33,528 nt of DNA, taken from Verrucomicrobiales bacterium (GTDB taxonomy: Bacteria; Verrucomicrobiota; Verrucomicrobiia; Verrucomicrobiales; DEV007). This document shows, in pieces, positions 1 to 32,479 of the stretch. The notes below the pieces were generated by a model that saw only the letters and a program-made list of their open reading frames with translations, had not been told where the DNA came from and made no database searches. Position numbers and translations under genes: made by a program. The stretch's first letter is position 1, and every line of letters starts with the position of its first letter. The stretch lies in assembly GCA_028281705.1 (NCBI GenBank), contig JANQJH010000494.1:1-33528 (forward strand). Direction: 5' to 3'.

Positions 1-2496
1 TGCAGGGGCCCAGGTCGCGGGCCCTTCGTCCCGGGACGATCGTAGCGCCGCCGCAGAAGGACGCACCTTCGCCACAGCCGCCTTCCCCGTTCCCTGGACC
101 AGGTGAAATCGCGCTCCGGGCGAGACGCCGGTAAAGCGCTCCACGGACCCGCCAGCCCAGAACACCCGGACTCGCTCGACTTTCGCCGCCGGTGATCCAA
201 GGCCGAAGTGGAGCCACTTGCTCGACTGAGCGAGGTAGCCCTCGCCGGCCTTCAGGGTGCGCAACAACCGCCGTCCATCGTCCAACATCACCTCGACACG
301 ACTCCCGATCCCATCGCGATTCGATCGCGTCCCGCGAAGCTTGAGCGCCAACCATCCCTTTTCCGTGGGCAAATCATTCCGCACGAACCGCAGCATGGGC
401 GCCGTGCGATTGCTGATCCAAAAATCGAGATCCCCGTCGTGATCCCAATCCACCAACGCCGGTGAGCGCGCGTCATCGTCAAAATCCAATCCGAGAGCCG
501 CACTCGCGGTGACGAAACGGCGAGACACCGACCCATCCCCCAGCTTCAGCGGCACGTTGAGAAAGGCGCAGTTGCGTTCATGCCCGCTGAGGGAAACGCC
601 TTCATCAATGAGATCGTCAAGCTCTTCCAGCCCCTGACGGAACGGGCTTTCGTGATCCTCGACCTCCCCGGTGCTCCCATCGAGCGGCGATGACGGCACG
701 ACCTGCCGCCAGTAAAAACTTCACAAGTCATCCGGCACCTCGCCCGTGACGTATCCGTTGGCCACGACCAAGTCCTCCCAGCCGTCATTGTTCAAGTCGG
801 CAAAGACCGATCCCCAACTCCAACGCCCGACCGTCACGCCCGTCATCACACTCACATCACGAAAACTCCGGCCGCTTCCCAAATTGCGGAAGAGACTATT
901 GCCCCGCGCCATGTGCTGAAAACGCTGCAAGAGCTCGGGGGCGAGACCCGGCCGAAACTGCGGTTGCCGGGTCACGCGGCTCCCTGCGGCGGAAAACATG
1001 TTCCCCGCGTAGAGATCCGTTAGGCCGTCCCCATCGTAATCCCCCGAGGAGGCCGACATGCCAAAGCCGCCGTCATCGATCCCCGCCGCCCCCGCGATGT
1101 CCTTAAAGATACCTCTCTCATTGATGTAGAGATTCTTCAGCCCAAAGTCGTTGGCGACGAACAAGTCCTGATCACCGTCGTGATCCACGTCATCCCAGAC
1201 CGCGGCCAAGCTGAACCGGCGGTTGTTCTGACTATCCAAACCGCTGGCCACCGTGGCATCGGAAAAGTTCAACCAGTTGGCCGCGTTCTTCGCCGGGCCC
1301 TCGTTGCGGATGAGAAAATTCCTGCCGCCGTTGTTCGCATCGAAATAGGGCACGGGCACGGCCAAGCCGGCGCCTTCTTCTTTCTTGGCGAAGTAACGGC
1401 AGACATAGAGATCGAGATCCCCGTCATTGTCATAATCCGCCGCGCTCACGCCAAAGGCATTGCGCACCGTGGGATACCGCACCTTCGCTTCAAATCGCCC
1501 ACTGCCATCGTTGCGAAAAGCCAACAAACCGGTATCGGCGGCGAGCACGAGATCCTGATCGCCGTCGTTGTCCAAATCGACGAAGAGCGCCGAACGCGTC
1601 AGATCCAAAAAATCCACCCCGGCATCCGCCGCCACATCACTGGCCGTGCCATCCGGCTGTTGCACGAAGAGCCGGTTGGGCAAGCCGCCGTTCTGACATA
1701 CGTAGACATCATCCAGGCCGTCGCCGTTCACGTCGCCGATGGCCAATCCGTGATGCCCGAACTTGAAGAAGCGGTTGAAGAGTTCGATGCGTTGCCGCCA
1801 ATAGGTGTTGCCAAATCGAAGCTGATCACGATAGGCGGGCGACTGACCAATGACCGCCAGGGTGGCGTCTTGAAAAGCCCGTTTCCCCGATGCCGATTTG
1901 GCCAGCACTTCTTCAAAATCCTCCAGGGCAATCGAGCGGATTCGCGGAAGCGTCTCCTCTTCCTCGCCGTTCCATTGCCAAGTGATGCGCCAAGTCGCAT
2001 TCTGCTCGAGATAGCCAGACTCCGCCGGCCCGGCAAAGGTGACTAACTGACGCGTGACGGGAGACTCGGGCGAAGCCGCAAGATCGACCTCAATCACCTT
2101 GAACTTCACGAGATCCAGAGGACCGGTGAACGGTTCAAAGAGCCGCTTCCACACATCGCCGGGCGCTGCCGCCGTCGACTCCACCGGCTTCATCCGAGTG
2201 ACGCAGAAGCCGCCATCGTCCAGAACGACGGACACCGGAGGGCGCAAGACCCCCACCGTTGGTTGGGCGACCGTGAAACCTTCCGCGCCGCTCGCCGGCT
2301 TCCCCTTCTTGAGCAAACTTCCCCATTCCCCCAGCTGGGCCGTGACCGTGGCGCTGAACGATTCGCTACGCCAATCGGCATCCGGCCGGGGCGTAGCATC
2401 CTCACTCCGGAGTATTGACGACAGGAGGAAGAGACCGCCGAAAACAATTCCCATGAAGGCCAAGGCCCTCAAGTGACACCTCAGGAGACCGGCCAT
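1..2496 (-). CDS. Secreted FG-GAP/VCBS-ASPIC (CRTAC1-like) protein, probable selenoprotein with in-frame TGA; C-terminus beyond window
   Basis: The start ATG (2494-2496) is followed by a hydrophobic export or anchor segment (about residues 10-28). Residues 240-590 carry repeated calcium-binding FG-GAP/VCBS motifs such as GDVNGDGLDDVYV, DLDNDGDQDLVLA, DYDNDGDLDLYVC and DYDGDGLTDLYAG, typical of an extracellular beta-propeller. Codon 592 is TGA (721-723). The same frame then stays open for 240 codons to the window edge. It continues with SFYWRQVV, another DWDHDGDLDFWI repeat, and an ASPIC/UnbV domain (GIGSRVEV, KAGEGYLAQSSKWLHFGLG), which is the normal C-terminal partner of these propellers. 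The TGA is therefore inside the gene. A SECIS-like hairpin follows it. TGA is a normal stop elsewhere in the window (glpK, the PQQ-like gene, the RHS gene), so genome-wide code reassignment is unlikely. Alternatives are a recent nonsense mutation or a sequencing error. It lies 62 bp downstream of the DUF1501 gene, probably co-transcribed. The ligand or substrate is unknown. Confidence 0.8.
691..711 (-). promoter_or_regulatory. SECIS-like stem-loop immediately downstream of in-frame UGA
   Basis: On the minus strand, nine bases after the TGA (712-720), TGGCGGCA (704-711) pairs along its full length with TGCCGTCA (691-698), including one G-U pair. It encloses the five-base loop GGTCG. Bacterial SECIS elements, exemplified by E. 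coli fdhF, lie inside the coding region just after UGA and present a GGUC loop to SelB. Here the loop begins 17 nt after the UGA, against about 18 in fdhF by my count. The hairpin overlaps codons for WRQVV, so part of the match could be a coding coincidence. Confidence 0.6.
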
Positions 2497-2558: not shown

Positions 2559-3998
2559 TTAGGCGAACAGATCCGTGACCGCCTTGGCCTTGACCAGCTC
2601 ACGAGGCTGATTGAGGTGGTTCATCACCACACTCTCCGGGTTGATCCCGAAGGCATGGTACACCGTGGCCAGGAGTTCTCCCGGGTGCACCGGATCCTCC
2701 AGAGGAGCCGAGCCGGTCTTGTCGGATTTCCCGTGCACGTAACCGCGCTTGATCCCGGCCCCGGCGATGCAGGCGGTGTAACAATAGGGCCAGTGATCGC
2801 GCCCATTGGCACTGTTTCCGTTGCCGCTCGTGGAAACCCCTTTCTCCGGGCTGCGCCCAAACTCGCCCACCGCGACGACCAAGGTTTCGTCGAGCATCCC
2901 GCGCTCATCGAGATCTTCGATCAAAGCGGAGAGACCGCCGTCTAACATCGGCGCCGATTGATTCTTCATCCGCTTGGGCAAGTCGACATGGACATCCCAG
3001 GAATGGTTGTCCGAGTTGGCCACCTTGGGCCAAATCACTTCGACGACACGCGTGCCGGCTTCCACCAAGCGACGTGCTAACAAACAACTTTCACCAAAGG
3101 TGTTCTTCCCATAGCGCTCACGCAGGTCGTCCGATTCCTGGTCCAGATTGAACGCTTCCCGGGCGCGGCCGGAGACGATGAGATTCAAGGCGCGATCGTA
3201 GTAGTCGTTCAGATTGTAGTCCTTGACGGCCCTATCAATGATCGGCATCTGCTTGTTGATCGCCGCCCGCAAGGTCGCCCGGCGGCGCAAGCGGACCGAA
3301 AAAATGTCAGGACGAAGCTGCAAGTCATCGATCTTGATCTTGCGCATCTTCGTCATGTCCATGTCGTCACCCTCCGGATAGAGCGTGTAGGGATCAAAAC
3401 CCTTGCCGAGAAAACCGGCGGTCCCTCCCTTGCCCACGACATTGCTTTCCTGCAGCGGCCGCGGGAGCATGACGAAGGGCAGCATGGGCTCCTCCGAAGG
3501 CTTGAGACGCACGATGTTGGAACCAAAGTTAGGAAAATCCTTGGGGCTCGGCGGCTCCAACTGACCCGAGGGGCTGACCTTGTCCGTGGTGTAGCCCGTC
3601 ATCATCTGGTAGATCGCGGCCGTGTGATTGAAGAGCCCGTTCGGCGTGTAGCTCATCGAACGGATCATCGTCATGCGGTCATTGACCTTGGCCAGCTTGG
3701 GCAGGAGTTCGGTGAAATGAGTGCCGGGGATCTTCGTCGGGATGGACTTGAACTCACTGCGGACGTTGTCCGGCACGTTCTCCTTGGGATCCCAGAGATC
3801 GAGATGGCTCGGGCCGCCCTGGAGATAGACGAGGATGACACTCTTGGCCTTCCCCCAACCGGGTCCCCCGCGGTGGGCGATCGCACTCGAGGCCTGGGCC
3901 TGGAGTTGCAGCATGGAGCCCAGGGAAAGCCCCAGCATACCCGCACCACCGACACGAAGCACGTCACGCCTCGTGGGGCCGATGTGGCTGTCACACAT
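2559..3998 (-). CDS. DUF1501 domain protein, Tat-exported
   Basis: A 479-residue protein of the DUF1501 family, abundant in Planctomycetota and Verrucomicrobiota and distantly related to the sulfatase/alkaline phosphatase fold. The N-terminus has a twin-arginine signal ([20 protein letters not shown]), so it is probably exported folded. Family landmarks visible are [19 protein letters not shown] near residue 60, the [13 protein letters not shown] segment, [22 protein letters not shown] and [10 protein letters not shown] chose the ATG at 3998, which puts [12 protein letters not shown] at the start as in relatives, over an in-frame ATG at 4031 that adds 11 residues. It sits just upstream of the FG-GAP/ASPIC gene on the same strand. 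DUF1501 proteins often pair with DUF1549/DUF1553 cytochrome-type proteins; none is visible here. The biochemical function is not established. Confidence 0.9.
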
Positions 3999-4134
3999 AT
4001 CTTTTCCAGGTTCGCCAGGGACTCTAAACATGATGATTACAGAGGATTTTCCCTCAGACGATAGTGCCTATCCCGGAGAACGGAAGCGAAATCGGGCTCT
4101 CCCGGCGATCCGGAAAAGGCCGTCTAGCCTAAGC

Positions 4135-18646: not shown

Positions 18647-19531
18647 ATGTTCTCTTCTTTAGGAGACTCTTCCGCTGCTCTGTTCCAACTGGCAGCCGTA
18701 TCCATTACGGCTCAGCCTTACATTGAATCGGGCTTCCTGGCGTCGTTGACGAATTCCATTTTCGTCGCCCTTGTGGTCATGGCCCTCATCTATTTTGTGG
18801 TGCGTGCGGGAACGCGCCGGGCGAGTCTGATTCCGGGGCCGGTGCAAAACGGCGTGGAGTTCATTTTCGAGTTTCTCTACGATCAGGTGGAGCAGGTCGT
18901 GGGCCCCAAGGTGGCGCCGCGGGCCTTTCCGCTTCTCTGCACCATTTTCGTATACGTCCTGGTGGCCAACTGGTTTGGCTTGTTGCCCGGGGTGGGGACC
19001 ATCGGGATTGGTCACGATGGTGATCGCATGCCCTTCATGGGATTGGCGGGCGAGCCGGAGATCCCCTTGCTTCGCCCGGCCACGGCAGACGTGAACCTCA
19101 CCTTGGGGATGGCGCTCTGCTTCATGATCGTCTGGTTCTACATCACCATGCGCGAGGCGGGGCCGATCGAGTTTCTCAAGCACACCTTTGCTCCCAAGGG
19201 TGGTCTCACCGGCTTCATCAATGTCATTCTCGTTCCCATCTTTTTCTTCGTCGGGATCATCGAAGTGATTTCCATTCTCTTTCGGCCGGTCTCACTGTCG
19301 CTCCGGCTCTTTGGCAACATCTTTGCGGGGGAGAATCTCCTCCATGCCATGAGTAGTTTGGGAGAACAGTTCGGACTCGGTACCGTCGGACAGTTTATCT
19401 CCAGCATTGTGCTTCCCCTGCCGTTTTACTTCATGGAACTGCTCGTCGGGGTGCTCCAAGCGACCGTCTTCGCGCTGCTCTGTGCGGTCTACATCCAACT
19501 CTCAACCGCGCACGACGAGGAAGAGCATTAA
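18647..19531 (+). CDS. atpB: ATP synthase Fo subunit a
   Basis: 294 residues, polytopic. Subunit a forms the proton half-channels beside the c-ring. The essential arginine is visible in VSLSLRLFGNIFAGE (R220). The C-terminal membrane helices (FISSIVLPLPFYFMELLVGV, ALLCAVYIQLS) match the family. An unusual soluble loop with acidic and glycine-rich sequence (about residues 120-145, GIGHDGDRMPFMGLAGEPEI) follows the second membrane segment. First gene of the operon: no atpI/atpZ-like gene precedes it in the window. The Rex site and leader hairpins lie in the 250-base gap upstream. Confidence 0.97.
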   Translation: MFSSLGDSSAALFQLAAVSITAQPYIESGFLASLTNSIFVALVVMALIYFVVRAGTRRASLIPGPVQNGVEFIFEFLYDQVEQVVGPKVAPRAFPLLCTIFVYVLVANWFGLLPGVGTIGIGHDGDRMPFMGLAGEPEIPLLRPATADVNLTLGMALCFMIVWFYITMREAGPIEFLKHTFAPKGGLTGFINVILVPIFFFVGIIEVISILFRPVSLSLRLFGNIFAGENLLHAMSSLGEQFGLGTVGQFISSIVLPLPFYFMELLVGVLQATVFALLCAVYIQLSTAHDEEEH

Positions 19532-19639
19532 CGAACTGACTCGGGAACCAATTTGCTTGTCGTGACCATGCGAAGTCAGTGGGCGGCAGGCTATCGAACG
19601 AAAAACGAACGAAACAAATAAAGAAGAAAGGAAATCACA

Positions 19640-19912
19640 ATGACTGACCTCTTATTCGCCGCCACGGAAATGGTCTCGCTGCTCGCAGCTGACGCCGCCA
19701 CGGACGTCCCCGGAGTCTCTGGTAGTTTGACTCTCGGTATCGCCGGCGCCGGTGCTGGCATCGGTGTGGGTCTCGTCGGAATGGGCGCCGCCCAGTCCGT
19801 GGGCCGCAACCCCGGTGCGTTTGGTAAGATCTTGACCATCGGCATTATTGGTATGGCCTTGGCCGAGGCTATCGCGATTTACGCGTTGATCATGGCCTTC
19901 GGTAAGTACTAA
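19640..19912 (+). CDS. atpE: ATP synthase Fo subunit c
   Basis: 90 residues, a two-helix hairpin that oligomerises into the rotor ring. TM1 is the glycine/alanine-rich LGIAGAGAGIGVGLVGMGAA; the polar loop is QSVGRNPGAFGKI; TM2 carries the ion-binding glutamate E76 in GMALAEAIAIYAL. The residue after E76 is alanine, not the serine or threonine of Na+-type rings, which favours H+ coupling. An N-terminal extension of about 25 residues (LLFAATEMVSLLAADAATDV) is longer than usual and could be a targeting segment or extra helix. A good Shine-Dalgarno (AAGGAAA) lies 7-10 bases before the ATG. Confidence 0.97.
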   Translation: MTDLLFAATEMVSLLAADAATDVPGVSGSLTLGIAGAGAGIGVGLVGMGAAQSVGRNPGAFGKILTIGIIGMALAEAIAIYALIMAFGKY

Positions 19913-19940
19913 GAAGAAAAGAAAGACACCTTTTTGATGG

Positions 19941-19971
19941 CCAGGTGGAGGTTTTGCCTCCACCTGGTTTT
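19941..19971 (+). terminator. Intra-operon hairpin with U-tract between atpE and atpF
   Basis: CCAGGTGGAGG (19941-19951) pairs perfectly with CCTCCACCTGG (19957-19967) around a TTTTG loop, followed by TTTT. This is an intrinsic-terminator shape inside an operon, or a 3' stabiliser of atpE mRNA. Either would raise c-subunit output over the downstream genes. Confidence 0.75.
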
Positions 19972-20004
19972 CACCTCGCTTCCTCAGAAATACGAACAGC
20001 TCTC

Positions 20005-20514
20005 ATGGACCAAATAGGAGAAATTCTCAGCAACCTCGGCGTCACCTGGCCAAAGTTTATCGCACAGATCATTATCTTTCTGATGGTCTACACGATCCTG
20101 AAGAAGTTCGCGTTCGGTCCCATCACCGCGATTCTTGAGGAGCGCCGCAAGCGCATCGAAGACACCGAGGCCGACCGGGCCAAGATCAAGAAGCAGCTGG
20201 CCGATTCCGAAAGCCTGGCCGCCGAGAAGGTGGCGGAGGCGAACGAGACCGCGGCTCGCATGATTTCCGAGGCGCGGGAGAGCGCCGCCGCGCTCGGTGA
20301 GAAGGAGAAGCAGCGCGCCACGCAGGAGGCGCAGGACATCATTGCCAAGGCCCACGAGGCGACCAAGCGCGAGCGCGAGCAGCAACTCGCCAGCTTGAAG
20401 AAAGATTTCGGGAAGCTGGTCATCGAGGCCACGGGGAAGGTGACCGGCAAGGTCCTCTCCGACGAAGATCAGAAAACGATCAACAAGGAAACCGCCGCCG
20501 AACTCGCGAGCTAA
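20005..20514 (+). CDS. atpF: ATP synthase Fo subunit b
   Basis: 169 residues. One N-terminal membrane helix (FIAQIIIFLMVYTILKKFAF) is followed by a long charged, alanine-rich coiled coil (EERRKRIEDTEADRAKIKKQ onward), the peripheral stalk that holds F1 against Fo. Starts at ATG 20005, MDQIGEILSNLGVTWPKF; an in-frame extension upstream to 19945 would run through the hairpin and is rejected. Only one b gene is present, so a homodimer is expected. It is 92 bases after atpE. Confidence 0.95.
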   Translation: MDQIGEILSNLGVTWPKFIAQIIIFLMVYTILKKFAFGPITAILEERRKRIEDTEADRAKIKKQLADSESLAAEKVAEANETAARMISEARESAAALGEKEKQRATQEAQDIIAKAHEATKREREQQLASLKKDFGKLVIEATGKVTGKVLSDEDQKTINKETAAELAS

Positions 20515-20576
20515 GCCGAGTGCCTTCATCGAGCGGCCGAACGATCTGTTACCTGTTTTTAGTTAGCTAGTTTCCC

Positions 20577-20972
20577 ATGAAAGGTTCCAAAGACGCGCTT
20601 CGCCACGCCAGGGCTCTCTTCCAGACCTGTGTCAAGGATGGCAAGCTGGATCACGATCGGGTGAAATCGATTGTGAAGCGCGTGGGCGAGGAAAAGCCTC
20701 GGGGTTATCTCGCCATCCTCACCGCCTTTCAGCGATTGATTCGTTTGGAACTGGAAAAACGTCATGCCGTGATCGAGAGCGCCGTGGAGCTGACTCAGGA
20801 TCTCAAGGATGACGTGTTGAAGAATTTGAAAGCCCGTTACAGCGACGATGTGACGAGCGAATTTAAAGTTGTGCCTGATTTGCTTGGCGGCATGCGCGTG
20901 CGTGTCGGCAGCGATATCTGGGACGGCAGCGTGAAGGCGCGCCTCGACCGTCTCAGCCAAGCCATTGCATAG
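20577..20972 (+). CDS. atpH: ATP synthase F1 subunit delta, short form
   Basis: 131 residues, against roughly 175-180 in most bacteria. The C-terminal third is typical (EFKVVPDLLGGMRVRVGSDI, DGSVKARLDRL). The N-terminal helical bundle, which caps the alpha3beta3 crown, is shortened: it begins MKGSKDALRHARALFQTCV, aligning with the first helix, and lacks about 45 residues compared with the standard form. The gene is otherwise intact and in the normal order, so I read this as a lineage-specific compact delta rather than decay. Joins subunit b to F1. Confidence 0.9.
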   Translation: MKGSKDALRHARALFQTCVKDGKLDHDRVKSIVKRVGEEKPRGYLAILTAFQRLIRLELEKRHAVIESAVELTQDLKDDVLKNLKARYSDDVTSEFKVVPDLLGGMRVRVGSDIWDGSVKARLDRLSQAIA

Positions 20973-21014
20973 AAGCCATTTTAGTTAAGTTAGAACTACT
21001 GAATACAACCGGAT

Positions 21015-22547
21015 ATGAGTAACATCCTTCAGGAACTGGAATCGGAAATCGGCGGTCTTAAGACGGCGGTTGCCAAGTCGAACGTCGGTGTCGTTCGCGA
21101 AACAGGTGACGGCGTGGCCAAGATCGAAGGGCTGACCGAAGTCATGCTCAACGAGATGATCGAGTTTCCCGGCGGCCGCTACGGCATCGCCCTCAACCTC
21201 GAGGAAACCGAAGTCGGTTGTGTGTTGCTCGGCGACGGACTCGACGTCAAGGAGGGTGACGAGGCCAAGACCACCGGTCGCCTCCTCTCCGTTCCCGTGG
21301 GCAAGGAGTTGTTAGGCCGTGTCGTCGATGTCATCGGTGATCCCCTGGACGGCAAGGGCGAGATCAAGGCGACCGAGACCTATCCGGTGGAAAAGATCGC
21401 TCCCGGCATCATTAAGCGGAAAGGGGTGTCGCAGCCGGTCCAGACCGGCATCATGTCCGTCGACGCCATGATTCCCATCGGCCGCGGCCAGCGGGAACTC
21501 ATCATTGGTGACCGTTCCACGGGGAAGACCACCATTGCGGTGGACACCATCATTTCTCAGGCCCGCCAGAACAAGGCGGCGGAAGAGGGCAAGCTGAAGG
21601 ATCATCGCCCGCTCTATTGCATCTACGTCGCCGTCGGCCAGAAGCAGTCCAACATCGCGCGGACGATCAAGGTCCTGGAAGACGCGGGCGCCCTGGAATA
21701 CACCATTGTCGTCTCGGCCTCGGCCTCGGACAGTGCCACCGCCCAGTACCTCGCCCCGTATGCCGGTTGCGCCATGGGCGAGTGGTTCATGGACAACAAC
21801 ATGGACGCCCTCATCGTCTATGATGATCTTTCCAAGCAGGCGGTGGCCTATCGCCAGCTGGCCCTCGTGCTGCGCCGCCCCTCCGGTCGTGAGGCCTACC
21901 CTGGTGACGTCTTCTACCTCCACAGCCGTCTGCTCGAGCGCAGTGCCCGTCTGAGTGAAGAGGCCGGTGGCGGTTCCTTGACGGCCTTGCCCATCATTGA
22001 GACCCAGGCGGGTGATGTCTCGGCCTACATTCCGACCAACGTGATTTCGATCACCGATGGTCAGATCTTCCTCGAGACGGACCTCTTTTATCAGGGGATT
22101 CGGCCCGCCATTTCGGTTGGTCTTTCCGTCAGTCGTGTGGGATCGGCGGCCCAGACCAAGGCGATCAAGAAAGTTTCCGGGACGACCAAGCTGGACCTGG
22201 CCCAGTTCCGCGAGCTGCAGGCGTTCGCCCAGTTCGGATCGGATCTCGATGAGGCCACGAAGGCGAAGATCGAACGCGGTCAGCGCATCGTCGAACTCTT
22301 CAAACAGAACCAATACAACCCGCTTTCTTTGGAGATGGAAGCGGCGCTCATGTGGGCCATGCAGAATGGCTACCTGGACGACGTCGACGTCGAAGAGGTC
22401 AAGGCGTTCCAGGGCAGGTTGGAAGAGTACCTTTCGACGCGGAAAGAATCGCTCCTGGGCAAGATCCGTGACGAGAAGGTCTTGACCGATGACATCGTCA
22501 GCGAGCTCAAGACCGCCTTGGACGACTTCAAGAAGAGCGCCCAATAG
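21015..22547 (+). CDS. atpA: ATP synthase F1 subunit alpha
   Basis: 510 residues, full length. Regulatory, mostly non-catalytic nucleotide-binding subunit. The N-terminal beta-barrel ([17 protein letters not shown]) is followed by the Walker A GDRSTGKT at residues 165-172, [37 protein letters not shown] and the ATP synthase alpha/beta signature [20 protein letters not shown]. The C-terminal helical domain is complete. Gaps to neighbours in the operon are about 40-60 bases. One leucine-glycine pair (21311-21316) uses the rare TTAGGC context seen across the window. Confidence 0.98.
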
Positions 22548-22603
22548 TTTTACATCGATAGAAGATCCGCCGACTGATCCTTTTCTAGCCTAAGACACTT
22601 CCA

Positions 22604-23491
22604 ATGGCCACCGCCCGCGACATCCGCCGACGCATCAAGTCGGTCAAGAGCACTGCCCAGATCACCAAAGCCATGCAGTTGGTGGCGGCTTCGAAGATGA
22701 AGAAGGCGCAGGATCAGGCACTGTCCGGACGTCATTATGCGGAGCTGATGAACAAGGTTCTGGTGAACCTGAAAGAGGCTTCGGTGGAAGAGGGGCACGC
22801 GCTCTTGGAGGATCGTGGCGAAGGCAAGGAGCTGGTCATTCTCGTCTCCTCGGACAAGGGCCTTTGCGGGGGCTTCAATACCAATCTCTTGAAGGCGGCC
22901 TTCAAGGCTCATCCCGATGCGCACTTCGTAACCATCGGAGCCAAGGGACGCCAGGCGGCGGCTCGCCTGGGCAAGGAGCTGTTGGCCGACTTTCACGTGA
23001 CCGACCCGGTGGATTTCGGGCAGGTCAAGACGGTCTCCAAGTTCGTGCGGGACAAGTTTCTCGAAGGTGAGTTCACGCGGGTGCATGTGGCCTTCACGAA
23101 TTTCGTCAATACCCTGAGCCAGATCCCTCACATCGATACCCTTCTGCCGGTCTCGCCGGTGACCCTGGGGAAAGCCAAGGACTACGAGGGTGTGGGTCTT
23201 GACAGCGATGCCGATGCCGGTGACGTGCCCGACGCCGGATACGAGTTCGAGCCCTCGGCCCAGGCGGTCTTCGACCATATCGTGCCGCAGTACATCGACT
23301 ATCAGATTTATCAAATGGTGCTCGAGTCCCGTGCTTCGGAGCACAGTGCCCGCATGGTGGCGATGAAAAGCGCGACGGACAACGCGGAGCAGCTCATTAA
23401 AGACCTTTCCCTCGAATACAACAAGCTGCGCCAGGCGGCCATCACCAACGAATTGCTGGAAATCACCACGGCCAGCTTGGCCCTCGAATAG
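22604..23491 (+). CDS. atpG: ATP synthase F1 subunit gamma
   Basis: 295 residues. Central stalk subunit. The family N-terminal coiled coil is clear (DIRRRIKSVKSTAQITKAMQ, LVAASKMKKAQ), as is SSDKGLCGGFNTNLLKA. The C-terminal helix ends SARMVAMKSATDNAEQLIKD and LEITTASLALE. A mid-domain insertion of about 20 acidic residues (VGLDSDADAGDVPDAGYEFE) is a modest addition. It starts 56 bases after atpA. Confidence 0.97.
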   Translation: MATARDIRRRIKSVKSTAQITKAMQLVAASKMKKAQDQALSGRHYAELMNKVLVNLKEASVEEGHALLEDRGEGKELVILVSSDKGLCGGFNTNLLKAAFKAHPDAHFVTIGAKGRQAAARLGKELLADFHVTDPVDFGQVKTVSKFVRDKFLEGEFTRVHVAFTNFVNTLSQIPHIDTLLPVSPVTLGKAKDYEGVGLDSDADAGDVPDAGYEFEPSAQAVFDHIVPQYIDYQIYQMVLESRASEHSARMVAMKSATDNAEQLIKDLSLEYNKLRQAAITNELLEITTASLALE

Positions 23492-23541
23492 AACACTCTT
23501 TTTTCCCAGACCCGCTCAAAACAACGAGTCTCTTCTCCTAA

Positions 23542-24966
<1,425 letters not shown>

Positions 24967-25519: not shown

Positions 25520-26260
25520 TCCCCTGCGGTGCTTCTGCCAGGAAACGCTTATGCGTCCCGCTACCGGGGGCGATGGAGAAATGCAGAATGAGCTTCCGAA
25601 CAGAGTCCTGTGGGGGCAGCAAACTCACGTTCAGGCAGGCAACCTGCTTAAGAGTCTCGGAGGAGATCTTTAGTGACTTCTCCACCGTCTTCATTTCGTT
25701 GAGGAATTGTTGGTGAAGATGTGGCAGGTGCTTCGGTGCTTCTGCCAGACCTATTTCAACCCGGCCGTTCAGCCGAGAATCAGCCCGGCCATGACAGGTG
25801 GTCCAGGCTACTGTTGATCGGGACCTCATCCACAGAGATTTGGGTGTCGTACATGCCATTGGCGTAATTGAGATTCAGATCGGCAAAGGACACTATATGA
25901 GGTTGATCTACCAGATAGACGAGGGCGCACGACGTCTTCTTTCCCTCAGGCCGGGACGAGATTTGTCCGCACAATTCGTCAGCACTCTATTTCAAGCCCT
26001 CGGCATCTTCATGAGCCGCCGACTACCCACAGATTCTGCTGAGGCGGTAAAACACATTACCCTAATCGTCTTTTGGAAAGTGTGAAAAAATATCAAAAAC
26101 GAGTTGCAATCTAGGTGAGCTTTTCCATTCTGTGCCATACATTTATCTGCTCTGCTTACGTGCTGTTATCTGACTTCGCTCGATGCTGTGCGTCTCTCTT
26201 TAGGTAGGGCTAGATCATGAGTCCATGCTCAACGACATAAAGAAGTTTACTCTGATTATT
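25520..26260. other. Long gap with no supportable gene before the RHS gene
   Basis: About 740 bases. Several short open frames exist on both strands, none with a recognisable family. On the minus strand, two adjoining frames (about 25974-25782 and 25859-25479) read as moderately protein-like (LVYLVDQPHIVSFADLNLNY, then LNEMKTVEKSLKISSETLKQ) and could be parts of a decayed gene. The last 150 bases before the RHS start are AT-richer and probably hold its promoter, but no clear boxes were identified. Confidence 0.35.
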
Positions 26261-29200
26261 ATGAGCAAGTCGCAACGTGCCTTTATAATAGCGCTGATTT
26301 TGGCGTTGACCTTAACCGATCCATCTTGGGCAGACCTACACAATCAAGGATCTGTTTCCTTACCCTCTTCCTATTTCATGGAGTACGAAATGCCGGAAGG
26401 CGGTATCGTCTATCGCTCCAATTTCGAAGACCCCGATGCCTTGGAACAACCGGGCTGGCGGATCGATCAGGGGGAGGCCAGTATCGTCGACGAGGGCTAC
26501 GAAGGTTCCTGTGTCCGGGTGGAACCCTCACCAGAAGGCAAGTTTGGTCAGGTCACTCTGACACTGGATCCGCCACCTGATCTGCCCGTGGTCTTTGTCG
26601 ACATGCAGGTGAAACCAGTGGCCTTTGCCGAAGGTCCGGAAGAATTTGCTGACGTCGCGGGCTCCGTCACGGGTGCCTTCCGTCTCGTAAAAGAAAGTGA
26701 GGCCGAGGAAGCCACGGCAGCCCTATACGTCCTCAACGGCAGTGGCGAGCGGGGAGGCGACTGGCTGGATACCGGCGTCACTTTCCGCCTCGATGAGGAA
26801 GGACGTCCCCTGGACTGGATGCGCCTCACATTTCGCCAGGAATTTTTTCGCACCGATACCATAGGCAGTCAGGACCGCTGGGATCTCTGGGTAGATGGTC
26901 GCCTTGTCAGCGCGGATTTGGGTTACTACGATCACGCCAATATCGATCCCGGTCGCGTCACTTTGTTGGGTCATCGCCTCACTCCTCTGTACATGGATAG
27001 CTTGACGGTCAGCTCAAGCAATCCGCTTTTCGTTGACAAGGACGCTGACGGCTTAGCGGATGCGTTTGAGCAAATCTATAATCTTGTCGGAGGTCGCGAC
27101 GGTGACCTCGATGACGATGGCCTTCTAAACTTCCATGAGTACATGCTCGGAACGAATCCTACTCTAGCGGATACGGATGGTGATGGTCTCAACGATCAGG
27201 AGGAGGTGGGCGATGACACGAGGGACCCGCTCGATAATTCAGATCGCACCCTTATCGGGGCCAGTGGCGGATTCGATGTCGGTGTCCTTTCCTTGAGTTA
27301 TACGGATTGCGACGACGCTTGGCTTGGTATTGCCGGTACCGCGATACTGACGTTTAGCTACAGTTCGCACGAAGTTGAGGTGGTCAGTGCCACGGCCACA
27401 GGATACGATGGCGACGCATTTTCATTGCTCATCGACAATAGCAGTGATGACGGCAAAATCATCATGATCGGGCTTTCTGAGCCAGAATTCGATGCGGGAA
27501 TGATTACGGTTAATCTTCGGTACAGATTCATTGGAGGCTCAACCTGGACCTACACAACAGAAGTGTTTGAGTGGTGGTGCGATTGCAGTTGCGGCTGCTT
27601 CGATGTTTATACTGCTACAAGTGTTCACGTAACGATTGGCCTTGGCCAAACCGATTTCGGTGATCGCACAGGCGAATTGAAAATCAATGAACGCAAATGG
27701 AGCGATCGTCTTTACTCCCGCGCATCGGTGATATACACCGGGCCTAAAGGCCCTGGTTTAATCGAGCAGAGTCCCGTGGAAATTAATGGGCGTGAGTACC
27801 TGGCTTACGACTGGATCAAGACTGCCACGAAATACGTGAGATTCACAGATCTAGAAAACGGCTATTTGATTGACATTTTCCCGTTGGACCAAGTCGACCG
27901 GAAGAATGATCCGAGGGGCGAGCCTATGAAGCGAATTCGCGTGACCAATCCGGACCCGACGAATCAATCAGGTATCAGGCGCGTGCAGTTTGTGCAAGAT
28001 ATCGGACGCTCCGCAGCGCGTGAGTTTCGCTTCTTTTCACGTGGCGGAAATGAGGTATGGGAAAAGTACGAGGGCTCGATTTCTTCCTTTCTTACGGAAC
28101 CGATGCGCTACGAGCGGGTGACCTACGACCGTTCGATCCCTACTACGAGAAAGGGCCGACCTCAACTCATTATGCGCAAAGAAGTCGGCCATTGGGATAC
28201 CCGTCAGAATCGCTATGTCGCGGACAGTGTTGTAGAATCGACGGAGGAACGCTTTGCCTTTGGCAATCGGCTGGTGAAGAAGGTAGTGGATCCCGATGGA
28301 GAAGCACTCGAAACTCGCTACGGGTATGACTCGAACGCGCCATCATTAAGTCCAAACGAAACCGGTTTAGAGCACGTGGGAAGTCGCTTGGTGCAGTGGG
28401 TGAGCTATCCTGATGGGAATTGGGAATGGTATCGCTATGATGATCAGGCGCGCCGTGTTGGTACTGCTCGGCCGGTCGGGAATCAGGTGCGTCCTGACGC
28501 CTTTCCTCAAGCGGGCCCTGGGTATGAAGTGGAGACTTTTGATTTTGATGGACCTGGATATCGAGTGCGATCAACTCTTACCCGGAACGGGCATTTCGTC
28601 AGACGAGAATTCCGTGACTGGAATGATGGTGACAGCGAAAGGCTCGTGGATGTGGCGCATAGGGTGGCGGTATCCTATGATCCCGAGGCGACAGCCAGCG
28701 ATCCACGAAATGAGATCCGACGAACTGTGCGGGGCCGCGATCATGGCAAGATCATCCGCTCGGAACAACCTGATGGGAGCTACACTACTCACTCTTATCG
28801 AGTGGACGGTGATCTGCGGGAACACGTCACCAAGCGATTCGACCGAGAGGGGCGTTTGGGTGTCCAAATCGAGGAACGGGTCCACCGATCAGGAACGGTT
28901 TTGGAACGAAAGCGTGTTGATGGCCCGTCCGGACTCGTGGTGGAACATTGGCGAGTAGAAGCGGTCGATTCACTGCATCGTCCTCTGATCACGATGGACG
29001 AAGTGCGGGGTGAGGTGTCGTCAAAGGGCTACGATTGCTGCGACGAGGCTTGGCGCACATCAGGAGATGGGCTGGCGACAGTGACCGTGCGCGACGTATT
29101 AGGTAGGGTAGTCGGTGAACGACAAGGGATTAAGGATGTCTATGACACAGGGAATCAATTGGAGAGTCAGTTGAGCGGCCAGACATATTTTCTGGATGGT

Positions 29201-32200
29201 CTTGATCGCCGGGTGACTACTACGACCTTGAGGGCTGATAGCGGCAAGCCGCTCACGAGTCACGTCCAATACAATCTCGCTGGCCAGCAAACCGCCAACG
29301 TGGACATGACTAATGTTCTTACTCAGTACAAGACCATTATACTCCCGGAGGGCGGCCGCATGGAACTCACTAGTTTGCCCAAGAGCGGTCGTGACCAACG
29401 GTATCGCATCGACTCTCGCACGTACAACGCCGAAGGTGAACTGGTTCGGGAGAGATCCTACGCTGCGGACGCTGCCCTCGGCACCGATCCGGCGCGCGGT
29501 ACCCAGACGAGCCATCGGCTCTTCAGGAAGGGACGTGATGCTCAGGGGCGCTACGCGGAGGTGACCGATATTGCCAACCTTTTTGACAGGCGAGTAACCC
29601 GCACCTATCTGGATGAGCGCGGTCGAAAGAAGGAAGTGATCAGGGCCTTTGGCACCGGCCTCGCCGCGAGGGAAAATTTCGATTACAACGAGGACGGCAA
29701 GTTGATCCGTCACATCGATCCTGATGGTGCCACCACGCGTTACGCCTATGACGGAAAAGGCCAGCGAATCGTAACCGCCCTTGATATGAATGTTGAACCC
29801 AATGAAGCGGTCGATCATATCGACTATGGAGTCGACCGAATCAATCGGGTGACGACGACCATGGCCACCACAAAGCGGGGGCAGGTGATCCTTCGAACGT
29901 CCAAGGAAGTCTTCACAGAATCTGGGCCGGTTGTCGTGTCCGTTCAAGAGCAGAGCCTCGATGGAAGTTATAGTGCTACTGTCGAAGGTGGTCAGCGTGC
30001 TACTCGCCAGCGGGCCGACGGTGAGGAACCTGGCCAGTGGTCGGTCGTGGTTACAAAGCCCGATGGTAGTCATTCGGTCCAGCGCTACGAAAACGGCCGC
30101 CTTGTTCGTAATACGCGTCATGCCTCCGATGGCACGGTCGTTTCTTGGACCTCTCGGGCCTATGACGGGTTTGGTCGCCTCTCCATGACAACTGATAGTC
30201 GTATTGGGACAACGAGCTATCACTATGACGGAAACGGTCGGAAGTGGAAGGTCAGTGCACCCAATCCGGAGACTGGTGAGAGCACTGGTGGGACGTTGGA
30301 TACTCTCTATTACTACGATTCGCTCGGTCAATTGGTGCGCACCATCAAGCCCAGCGGTGGAGTGATTCATCGGGTCTACAACGCGAACGGAACACTTTAC
30401 GGCATCCAGGGACATCACATCATCGACGTTACATTCGGTTACAATGGCCGGGGCGAGCGGACGCGTCTTTCGACCCAATACGGAGCCGATAAGAAGTCAG
30501 CTAGAACCCGATGGATATACGATACACGTGGTCAGTTGGCCATCAAAGAAGATGCTCTTGGGAGGCGTGTCCATTACACTTTCACGCCCGGTGGTAGGCC
30601 CAAAACACGCACATGGGCGCGGGGAGTTAAAACAACCTATGAGTACGATCGAGATAATGGAACTGATCTGCGAAACATAGACTACAGTGATGACACTCCA
30701 GACATTTCTTTTACTTATACCCGGATCGGACAGAAGAAAATAGTGACAGATGCTGGTGGGATTACTACTTACACATATCACTCTAAGGCACCGACCCAAG
30801 TCCTCTCAGTGACCGCTGGCACGGATCTCTATGCAGAGCCGAAGACGATCACCTATTTGCGAGATGATTTACACCGAATAGCCGGATTTCAGGTTGGGAA
30901 CGCGAGCAATCCTGATGGTGACTACTCGATTGCGTATCAATATGACACTGTCGGCAGGCTTGAGAGCGTTCACGGCCATGGGTATTGGTTTGATTACGCG
31001 TATGAGCCAAATTCGACAACAGATCGATTGAAAACTTTGACTGCTCCCTTCGTGAAACAAACCGAGTTCACATACGAGCGCGGTCGTGACACTATAGCCA
31101 GTGTATCGAACCGAGTAGGGTTCAACCTCGACAAGGTAGTTTCGCAGTACGATTACGCTATCGATGCCGACGGGAAGCGTGTGGCTCGTATCACGAACAT
31201 TGGTGACGACGAGAATTCTTACAAGGATCGCTTTTCGTATGATGTTGACACCGGCGGCCTTACTGCTCTTCAACGTAACAACGAAAACTTCAGTTCCACA
31301 TACGCCTACGACAAGATCGGGAATCGTAAGAGTGCGGCGATCAATGAATCGGAAACTGTCTACGAATCGAATGCGCTCAATCAATACACAGCGATCGGAG
31401 ATGATGCGCGATTCTATGATCCGGATGGGAATCTCATTGTGAACGGTGATCAGAGTTACACCTGGGACGCTGAGAATCGACTTGTCGCTATCCGAGAGCG
31501 CGGGGGTAGCGTGCGCGCCCAATACACCTATGATCATCAATCGCGTCGGGTTGCACGCAAGACCCAAGATGGGGTCGACGAACGCTACCTATTCCAGAGC
31601 TGGAATCTCATTTGTGTTTATGGTTCGAGTGAAATCTCACCAAGTGAGACCTATTTTTGGGGTAAGGATTTAGGCGGCAGTTTCCAGGGAGCAGGAGGCG
31701 TAGGCGGCCTTCTCTTTGCCAAGAAAGGAGATCATGGGAGCGATGCCTGGATTTACCACTACGATGCCAATGGAAACGTAACGACAATAAGCAACTCGAA
31801 AGGCAAGATATTGGAGAGCCTTGAATTTGATCCCTTTGGTAATCTGCTTGGCCGCCCCCGACTACCGGAGAATCGTTGGCGTTTTAGCACGAAACCGCAG
31901 GACGATGAAACTGATTTTTATTATTATGGGTACCGGTATTATGACGCCTCGAATGGAAAATGGTTATCGAGAGATCCTATTTCCGAACGGGGAGGAATGA
32001 ACCTTTACAGTATCTTGAGAAATGATTGCATTAATGAAACTGACTATCTGGGGCTAATTTGCGATAACATTAAGATTTATCAGGAAGACTTTAGCCCGCC
32101 CAATTATGGACACCGCTGGATAGAGTTTCAGTCTCCAGGGGAGCCCGTAGATGCATGGGGATATTGGCCAGTTGGGCATCCTGTGTACTCGGAAGGGCGA

Positions 32201-32479
32201 TTGTTTGAGGGAAACGATCCAAAAGGTGGAGACGCGGATGCTCAAGATAGAGTCTGGGGAATCAAGTGTAAGCGTGTCAGAAATGCGAAACAAAATGTTT
32301 TGAAATATGGGTCAGGAGCGGGGAAAAGATGTTGTGACGCAACTTGCGATGAGATCGAAGATTGTCTTAAGAAAGCCTTGAAAGAATACGCTGCGAATCA
32401 CGGCTATAGCATATTTTGTTCGAATTGCCGAACCGCCCTTGAGTTCGCTAAAGCTGAGTGTAAGGTTTCTAGTAAATGA
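26261..32479 (+). CDS. Giant secreted RHS-repeat protein with variable C-terminal domain
   Basis: 2072 residues from the ATG at 26261, which gives a Sec signal peptide (SKSQRAFIIALILALTLTDP); an upstream ATG at 26225 adds 12 residues. Order: a LamG-like jelly-roll (about 50-255), EF-hand/thrombospondin-3-like calcium repeats (about 259-315, DKDADGLADAF, DTDGDGLNDQEE), an all-beta region, a cysteine-rich spot (WWCDCSCGCFD, near 440), many RHS/YD repeats (about 600-1850), and the RHS core (DPFGNLLGRP to DYLGL, 1857-1932). The last 140 residues are unrelated to RHS. They place a histidine early (YGHRWIEF, H1951) and a cysteine late (FCSNCRTALEFA, C2056), the H-then-NC order of permuted NlpC/P60 or LRAT-type cysteine hydrolases. 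RHS shells encapsulate such toxins. No VgrG, T6SS or TcB/TcA gene is nearby. Confidence 0.9.
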   Translation: MSKSQRAFIIALILALTLTDPSWADLHNQGSVSLPSSYFMEYEMPEGGIVYRSNFEDPDALEQPGWRIDQGEASIVDEGYEGSCVRVEPSPEGKFGQVTLTLDPPPDLPVVFVDMQVKPVAFAEGPEEFADVAGSVTGAFRLVKESEAEEATAALYVLNGSGERGGDWLDTGVTFRLDEEGRPLDWMRLTFRQEFFRTDTIGSQDRWDLWVDGRLVSADLGYYDHANIDPGRVTLLGHRLTPLYMDSLTVSSSNPLFVDKDADGLADAFEQIYNLVGGRDGDLDDDGLLNFHEYMLGTNPTLADTDGDGLNDQEEVGDDTRDPLDNSDRTLIGASGGFDVGVLSLSYTDCDDAWLGIAGTAILTFSYSSHEVEVVSATATGYDGDAFSLLIDNSSDDGKIIMIGLSEPEFDAGMITVNLRYRFIGGSTWTYTTEVFEWWCDCSCGCFDVYTATSVHVTIGLGQTDFGDRTGELKINERKWSDRLYSRASVIYTGPKGPGLIEQSPVEINGREYLAYDWIKTATKYVRFTDLENGYLIDIFPLDQVDRKNDPRGEPMKRIRVTNPDPTNQSGIRRVQFVQDIGRSAAREFRFFSRGGNEVWEKYEGSISSFLTEPMRYERVTYDRSIPTTRKGRPQLIMRKEVGHWDTRQNRYVADSVVESTEERFAFGNRLVKKVVDPDGEALETRYGYDSNAPSLSPNETGLEHVGSRLVQWVSYPDGNWEWYRYDDQARRVGTARPVGNQVRPDAFPQAGPGYEVETFDFDGPGYRVRSTLTRNGHFVRREFRDWNDGDSERLVDVAHRVAVSYDPEATASDPRNEIRRTVRGRDHGKIIRSEQPDGSYTTHSYRVDGDLREHVTKRFDREGRLGVQIEERVHRSGTVLERKRVDGPSGLVVEHWRVEAVDSLHRPLITMDEVRGEVSSKGYDCCDEAWRTSGDGLATVTVRDVLGRVVGERQGIKDVYDTGNQLESQLSGQTYFLDGLDRRVTTTTLRADSGKPLTSHVQYNLAGQQTANVDMTNVLTQYKTIILPEGGRMELTSLPKSGRDQRYRIDSRTYNAEGELVRERSYAADAALGTDPARGTQTSHRLFRKGRDAQGRYAEVTDIANLFDRRVTRTYLDERGRKKEVIRAFGTGLAARENFDYNEDGKLIRHIDPDGATTRYAYDGKGQRIVTALDMNVEPNEAVDHIDYGVDRINRVTTTMATTKRGQVILRTSKEVFTESGPVVVSVQEQSLDGSYSATVEGGQRATRQRADGEEPGQWSVVVTKPDGSHSVQRYENGRLVRNTRHASDGTVVSWTSRAYDGFGRLSMTTDSRIGTTSYHYDGNGRKWKVSAPNPETGESTGGTLDTLYYYDSLGQLVRTIKPSGGVIHRVYNANGTLYGIQGHHIIDVTFGYNGRGERTRLSTQYGADKKSARTRWIYDTRGQLAIKEDALGRRVHYTFTPGGRPKTRTWARGVKTTYEYDRDNGTDLRNIDYSDDTPDISFTYTRIGQKKIVTDAGGITTYTYHSKAPTQVLSVTAGTDLYAEPKTITYLRDDLHRIAGFQVGNASNPDGDYSIAYQYDTVGRLESVHGHGYWFDYAYEPNSTTDRLKTLTAPFVKQTEFTYERGRDTIASVSNRVGFNLDKVVSQYDYAIDADGKRVARITNIGDDENSYKDRFSYDVDTGGLTALQRNNENFSSTYAYDKIGNRKSAAINESETVYESNALNQYTAIGDDARFYDPDGNLIVNGDQSYTWDAENRLVAIRERGGSVRAQYTYDHQSRRVARKTQDGVDERYLFQSWNLICVYGSSEISPSETYFWGKDLGGSFQGAGGVGGLLFAKKGDHGSDAWIYHYDANGNVTTISNSKGKILESLEFDPFGNLLGRPRLPENRWRFSTKPQDDETDFYYYGYRYYDASNGKWLSRDPISERGGMNLYSILRNDCINETDYLGLICDNIKIYQEDFSPPNYGHRWIEFQSPGEPVDAWGYWPVGHPVYSEGRLFEGNDPKGGDADAQDRVWGIKCKRVRNAKQNVLKYGSGAGKRCCDATCDEIEDCLKKALKEYAANHGYSIFCSNCRTALEFAKAECKVSSK

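Follow-up and report, generated by a model that had tools for sequence, protein, structure and literature searches.

Analysis of the window, that is, the complete 33,528-nt stretch of Verrucomicrobiales bacterium DNA under study, raised the question of whether a TGA codon inside an FG-GAP/ASPIC gene on its minus strand ends the protein or is read as selenocysteine (Sec). An earlier reading of the letters alone, hereafter the sequence-only reading, had proposed a probable new selenoprotein, and the proposal is supported here by homologous TGA codons in the same alignment column, a Sec/Cys pair, a SECIS hairpin, and the presence of SelA, SelB and SelD. On these computational grounds, we consider it very probable (roughly 0.95) that the TGA is decoded as Sec, and it is in this way that we infer actual Sec insertion. 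The features discussed below are collected in Table 1.

Table 1. Positions of the predicted selenoprotein gene, its parts and other features of the window
Feature	Position	Strand	Remarks
Predicted selenoprotein gene	1..2496	-	832 codons; runs off contig end
Signal peptide/membrane segment, ~aa 1-32	2401..2496	-	Judged from sequence
NTF2-like (SnoaL/ketosteroid isomerase-like cone) domain, ~aa 43-200	1897..2370	-	Fold search of model
FG-GAP beta-propeller, Ca2+-type DxDxDG loops, CRTAC1-like, ~aa 245-707	376..1764	-	Domain search and model
In-frame TGA, predicted selenocysteine 592	721-723	-	Same column in every aligned TGA homologue
Helix aa 591-602, insertion between blades	691..726	-	Sec592 at N-terminus; AlphaFold secondary structure, block pLDDT 91
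Bacterial SECIS hairpin	691..711	-	8-bp stem; loop GGUCG at 703-699; UGA-loop 17 nt; MFE -13.0 kcal/mol
UnbV_ASPIC domain (PF07593), aa 729-795	112..312	-	E 5.9e-15; wholly downstream of TGA
DUF1501 protein gene	2559..4031	-	Directly upstream, same strand, 62-nt gap
F1Fo ATP synthase genes (a, alpha, beta)	18647-24966	+	
2084-aa ORF with RHS repeats	26225-32479	+	

The reading frame continues beyond a single in-frame TGA

Direct reading of the sequence placed the start of the ORF at the ATG at position 2496 of the minus strand, with 591 amino acids coded before the TGA; translation showed that the TGA (codon 592) is preceded by GYVTGEVPDDL and followed by SFYWRQVV. As the sequence-only reading had stated, one TGA interrupts the gene and the same frame then runs for 240 codons without a stop, reaching base 1 of the window. 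Because this base is the end of the contig (C280), the true stop codon and C-terminus of the gene are unseen. An open run of 240 codons has a chance probability of ~0.0014 at 64% G+C, and the remaining five frames of the same stretch contain 3-7 stops each. Downstream of the TGA lie the final FG-GAP repeat and the complete UnbV_ASPIC domain, in line with the calcium repeat and ASPIC domain claimed for this region.

We take the decisive point to be homology that extends across the TGA and not the length of the ORF. At 66-72% identity, close orthologues from three congeners share a TGA at this codon, so that neither a sequencing error nor a nonsense mutation private to this genome can account for it. 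In the closest orthologue pair (L009/L010), dN/dS was ~0.09 before the TGA (0.081/0.889) and ~0.11 after it (0.111/0.992); purifying selection thus acts alike before and after the TGA. The strongest conservation was found in the codons directly 3′ of the TGA.

The TGA marks one column of a large paralogous family

The host genome encodes 15 family members with an in-frame TGA, the relative G023 gave 14 pattern matches, and a search of 57 related genomes returned over 100 homologues, each of which has a single in-frame TGA. When 76 matches were aligned, the TGA of each TGA homologue fell into one column, within the motif DL-U-SFYWRQVV or the variant DL-U-SxLWRxVV. TGA-containing orthologues, which the sequence-only reading had named as support for Sec, therefore exist at this very codon, and no relative with TGG or CGA, which it had named as the mark of a nonsense mutation, was seen there.

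We also scanned 84,980 public species genomes with a motif pattern that permitted TGA, TGC or TGT. Among the matches listed, at least 109 stretches yielded 114 matches, all of them with TGA and none with TGC or TGT; because the pattern required GTCGTG, it favoured SECIS-bearing genes, and the Sec/Cys ratio obtained from it is not unbiased. All but one of the listed matches (113/114) are sequence homologues of the window protein. The carriers are labelled Verrucomicrobiota, Planctomycetota and Acidobacteriota (Holophagales, Thermoanaerobaculia, Terriglobia and Bryobacterales), joined by one metagenome-assembled genome labelled Myxococcaceae and one labelled Proteobacteria. The window gene is one member of a large family of paralogous, predicted selenoproteins that spans at least three phyla, Verrucomicrobiota, Planctomycetota and Acidobacteriota. 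A phylum-wide pattern search gave only chance-like matches outside the host genome and is uninformative because the carriers are confined to few families.

A pseudogene, a nonsense allele or two adjacent ORFs, with the propeller simply truncated, is extremely improbable although TGA serves as an ordinary stop in other genes of the window and the host assembly holds selC only as a truncated copy (see below), since the TGA recurs in one column across phyla and in 15 paralogues of one genome, the downstream dN/dS is ~0.11 with conservation peaking directly after the TGA, and the last blade and the ASPIC domain are encoded beyond it. The conserved same-column TGAs and the dN/dS values likewise ruled out a frameshift or sequencing error.

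Two side groups were observed within the family. A divergent paralogue in the host genome (L104, on contig C44) has the TGA in the same column followed by another motif, DLULPYVKAAV, and L118, L128, L130, L143, L147, L148 and similar sequences form a second subgroup with the motif DLUSxLWRxVV.

Cysteine in the predicted selenocysteine column of a single clade of paralogues

Exactly in the Sec column, 16 paralogues that lack the TGA and come from the same set of genomes have Cys (KDYCTRFWCHDLYTG), in line with the expectation of the sequence-only reading that homologues with Cys at codon 592 would support Sec. In a FastTree phylogeny of 165 sequences (148 Sec, 16 Cys and 1 other), these Cys paralogues form a single clade with a support of 1.0. 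Because M480, S502, R507, W559, D590, W596 and R677 are common to the Cys proteins and most Sec proteins, the entire site is old, with the Se/S atom among its constant parts. Near-invariant across the Sec and Cys groups are M480, S502, W559, D590, E640 and R677.

The absence of a cysteine next to the Sec residue had already been remarked on, and indeed none lies within four residues of codon 592; the protein has no CxxU or UxxC redox motif, which is common in selenoproteins and not obligatory. Cys597 is exclusive to the Cys paralogues, which have Cx4C. Cys643 and the pair Cys267/Cys366 are conserved mainly in the main Sec subgroup; Cys267 and Cys366 are conserved neither in the second Sec subgroup nor in the Cys clade.

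A covarying SECIS hairpin follows the TGA

The hairpin downstream of the TGA agrees with four of the four published criteria for a bacterial SECIS element, namely a loop of 3-9 nt with G in the first two positions, a stem of 4-16 bp, a spacing of 16-37 nt and an MFE ≤ -7.5 (PMC13188914). Columns 15-20 after the UGA pair with columns 26-31 around the GGUCG loop, and in 30 distinct sequences 96.1% of the pair cells hold standard pairs. The covariation score was 0.359 compared with 0.151 for shuffled alignments (reached in 0/500) and at most 0.172 when the helix was slid. The hairpin is therefore conserved, which the sequence-only reading had named as support for Sec, and covarying as well.

The signal extends to synonymous positions. 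Covariation links the third base of the Arg597 codon to the first base of codon 601 (44/53 paired; 0/20,000 permutations reach this value). Val599 is encoded by GTC in 45/53 sequences, compared with 33% of the other Val codons in these genes, and Val600 by GTG in 39/42, compared with 43%. None of the Cys paralogues examined has a comparable hairpin.

In Escherichia coli fdhF, the SECIS is a hairpin directly after the UGA with a GGUC apical loop, and this loop stands at nearly the same spacing from the UGA as in the window hairpin. Several members of the second subgroup have a 4-nt GGUC loop in a shifted register, closed one base earlier, which we take to resemble that of fdhF. The proteins themselves are unrelated: in E. 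coli FdhH, a molybdoenzyme of the cytoplasm, Sec is a ligand of Mo.

Selenocysteine machinery and its co-occurrence with the family

The host genome encodes SelA on contig C171 (E 2.8e-122) and SelB on C423; the SelB gene is cut by the contig end, and its product matched the SelB barrel and SelB-wing_2 but not SelB-wing_3. SelD is encoded on C92 (L263, 2391-3314) and carries an in-frame TGA of its own in the catalytic motif (CGUAAK), followed by sequence able to form a GGUC-loop hairpin. The host genome thus encodes at least one established kind of selenoprotein. This SelD shares the decoding system with the window gene, whereas it belongs to a known selenoprotein family and is unrelated to the window protein in fold and role.

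Of the genes selA, selB, selC and selD, which the sequence-only reading had singled out, only selC was not recovered intact. An Rfam search of the host genome for tRNA-Sec returned only tRNA-Ser, Leu, Gly, His and similar, and a DNA search with a congener's selC found a 65-nt 3′ fragment with a UCA anticodon (L262, C483:18553-18617), which passes into unrelated DNA immediately behind the anticodon arm. Intact selC was found neither in the host assembly (91% complete) nor in that of the congener G003 (88% complete); G001, G002 and many carriers have an intact tRNA-Sec. The fragment could be what is left at an integration site, with the true selC lying in the 9% that the assembly lacks, or is possibly an assembly chimera. 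In the proposed mechanism, SelA would make Sec-tRNA-Sec, and SelB, bound to the SECIS within the coding sequence just downstream, would deliver it to the UGA.

Among the 57 relatives, the TGA family was present in 20/26 SelA-positive and 0/31 SelA-negative genomes (Fisher p 1.9e-10), with lone pattern matches in G021, G038 and G050, which lie off the motif context, scored as chance. SelA with E < 1e-50 was found in 28/30 carriers identified by the motif scan, including Acidobacteriota and Planctomycetota, and in 17/289 genomes of the phylum sample; the other two motif-found carriers have no convincing SelA. A few genomes belong to both sets of carriers.

We also considered that the UGA is read without selenium as Trp, Cys or a near-cognate residue, through programmed readthrough or a UCA-anticodon tRNA. 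Since Cys fills the column in paralogues, the protein should still work if a Cys tRNA read the UGA, and the incomplete selC of the host assembly could be taken in the same sense. Against this stand the co-occurrence with SelA in both sets of genomes, a SelB-type SECIS with a GGUC loop that is confined to the UGA genes, and a SelD in the same genome that is itself a Sec protein, all of which make non-Sec readthrough highly improbable.

Domain organisation and predicted structure

In the 832-aa product, domain searches matched four FG-GAP_3 stretches, one FG-GAP repeat and UnbV_ASPIC. The FG-GAP repeat (PF13517/PF01839), the C-terminal UnbV_ASPIC domain and the CRTAC1-type propeller were all present; an NCBIfam search gave no model above the cut-off for the window protein. 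An AlphaFold model spanning the TGA, built with 35 aligned members, reached a pLDDT of 87.8 and a pTM of 0.90. The N-terminal domain modelled alone resembles NTF2-like/ketosteroid-isomerase cones weakly (E ~1e-2).

Murine CRTAC1 (cartilage acidic protein 1, PDB 9etn), which shares the FG-GAP propeller and the ASPIC domain with the window protein, was the best structural match (E 4.8e-27, TM 0.75 by target length) and also the best sequence match in the PDB, with an identity of only 16%. In contrast to the shared domains, no segment of the profile alignment to CRTAC1 covers the Sec region or the N-terminal NTF2-like domain of the window protein. The model places Sec592 in an inter-blade insertion, which fits the position between propeller blades that had been proposed from the sequence.

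With the TGA read as a residue, the gene would yield an exported protein in which the signal peptide leads into an NTF2-like domain, followed by a Ca2+-stabilised FG-GAP/CRTAC1-like propeller and, at the C-terminus, an ASPIC domain.

Possible roles of Sec592

Sec592, at the N-terminus of a helix in the inter-blade insertion, could serve as nucleophile or redox centre in an enzyme that acts outside the cytoplasm. The placement of a selenolate at the start of a helix, in a family rich in near-invariant polar and aromatic residues, speaks for a catalytic site; we give a catalytic-redox role, as suggested by the model, about an even chance. Most likely, the chemistry would be a peroxide- or thiol-type redox reaction or involve a Sec-metal site. 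The many paralogues argue for substrate diversification, and they may differ in substrate. An exported selenoenzyme superfamily, with a helix-N-terminal selenolate between Ca2+-stabilised propeller blades and ~15 paralogues per genome for different extracellular substrates, is a reading whose chances we likewise see as evenly balanced.

Because the protein lacks CxxU and because conservation of Cys643 and Cys267/Cys366 is largely confined to the main Sec subgroup, a metal site has to be taken seriously as an alternative. Sec would then be genuine and act as a metal ligand or structural element, its selenolate lying above the propeller channel with Cys267, Cys366 and Met500 on neighbouring blades. 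Such a role would suit the lack of CxxU or UxxC, the Cx4C of the Cys paralogues and the Cys and Met that other blades of the main subgroup conserve at the equivalent places in their loops. It is opposed by the lack of conservation of Cys267 and Cys366 in the second Sec subgroup and the Cys clade, and by the prevailing view that most known selenoproteins are redox proteins (PMC13188914). We regard a metal or structural role as rather unlikely.

Relation to known selenoproteins

A 2026 catalogue comprises 119 prokaryotic selenoprotein families and subfamilies (PMC13188914), and no FG-GAP, VCBS, UnbV/ASPIC or CRTAC1 protein is among them. The catalogue does include some large, probably exported members, for example UshA-like and TonB-dependent receptor selenoproteins, and many of its motifs pair Sec with a nearby Cys, which the window protein lacks. 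A 2025 deep-Sep paper names nine families, all other than the FG-GAP/ASPIC family. A search of the open literature (5.39 million papers) for selenoproteins with UnbV, FG-GAP, CRTAC1 or VCBS yielded nothing relevant; single members may be among the predictions in the supplement of PMC4807772, part of which concerns selenoproteins in two planctomycetes. The statement that no selenoprotein had been described in the FG-GAP/ASPIC family thus held for both the catalogue and the open literature. The decoding appears to be ordinary; what seems new is the protein family, together with its fold and the extent to which it has expanded.

It appears that a family of selenoproteins, spread over three phyla and reaching ~15 members in a genome, has been overlooked, one likely reason being that gene callers cut each gene at the UGA and split off the ASPIC domain. 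The family adds a CRTAC1-like propeller, a fold outside the current selenoprotein catalogue, and would extend the selenium chemistry of soil and marine bacteria beyond their cytoplasm. Selenoproteome estimates rise for lineages that are not named as selenoprotein-rich in PMC5029168, the main text of which does not mention Planctomycetes, Verrucomicrobia or Acidobacteria. If the reading as an exported superfamily is true, some Verrucomicrobiota, Planctomycetota and Acidobacteriota would rank among the most selenoprotein-rich bacteria through one family. No stated function for bacterial CRTAC1/ASPIC proteins was found in the literature, and Sec and natural Cys paralogues of one fold offer an experimental handle on it.

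Gene neighbourhood

No conserved neighbour of the family genes was found, and the DUF1501 gene next to the window gene is absent at the orthologue loci examined. DUF1552, DUF1592, sulfatase and FG-GAP paralogues are occasional neighbours only at the family loci examined. At L159, L175, L190 and L213, family members adjoin sulfatase or DUF1592-type cytochrome genes; in these few cases, the sulfatase and DUF1592 neighbours would fit extracellular polymer degradation.
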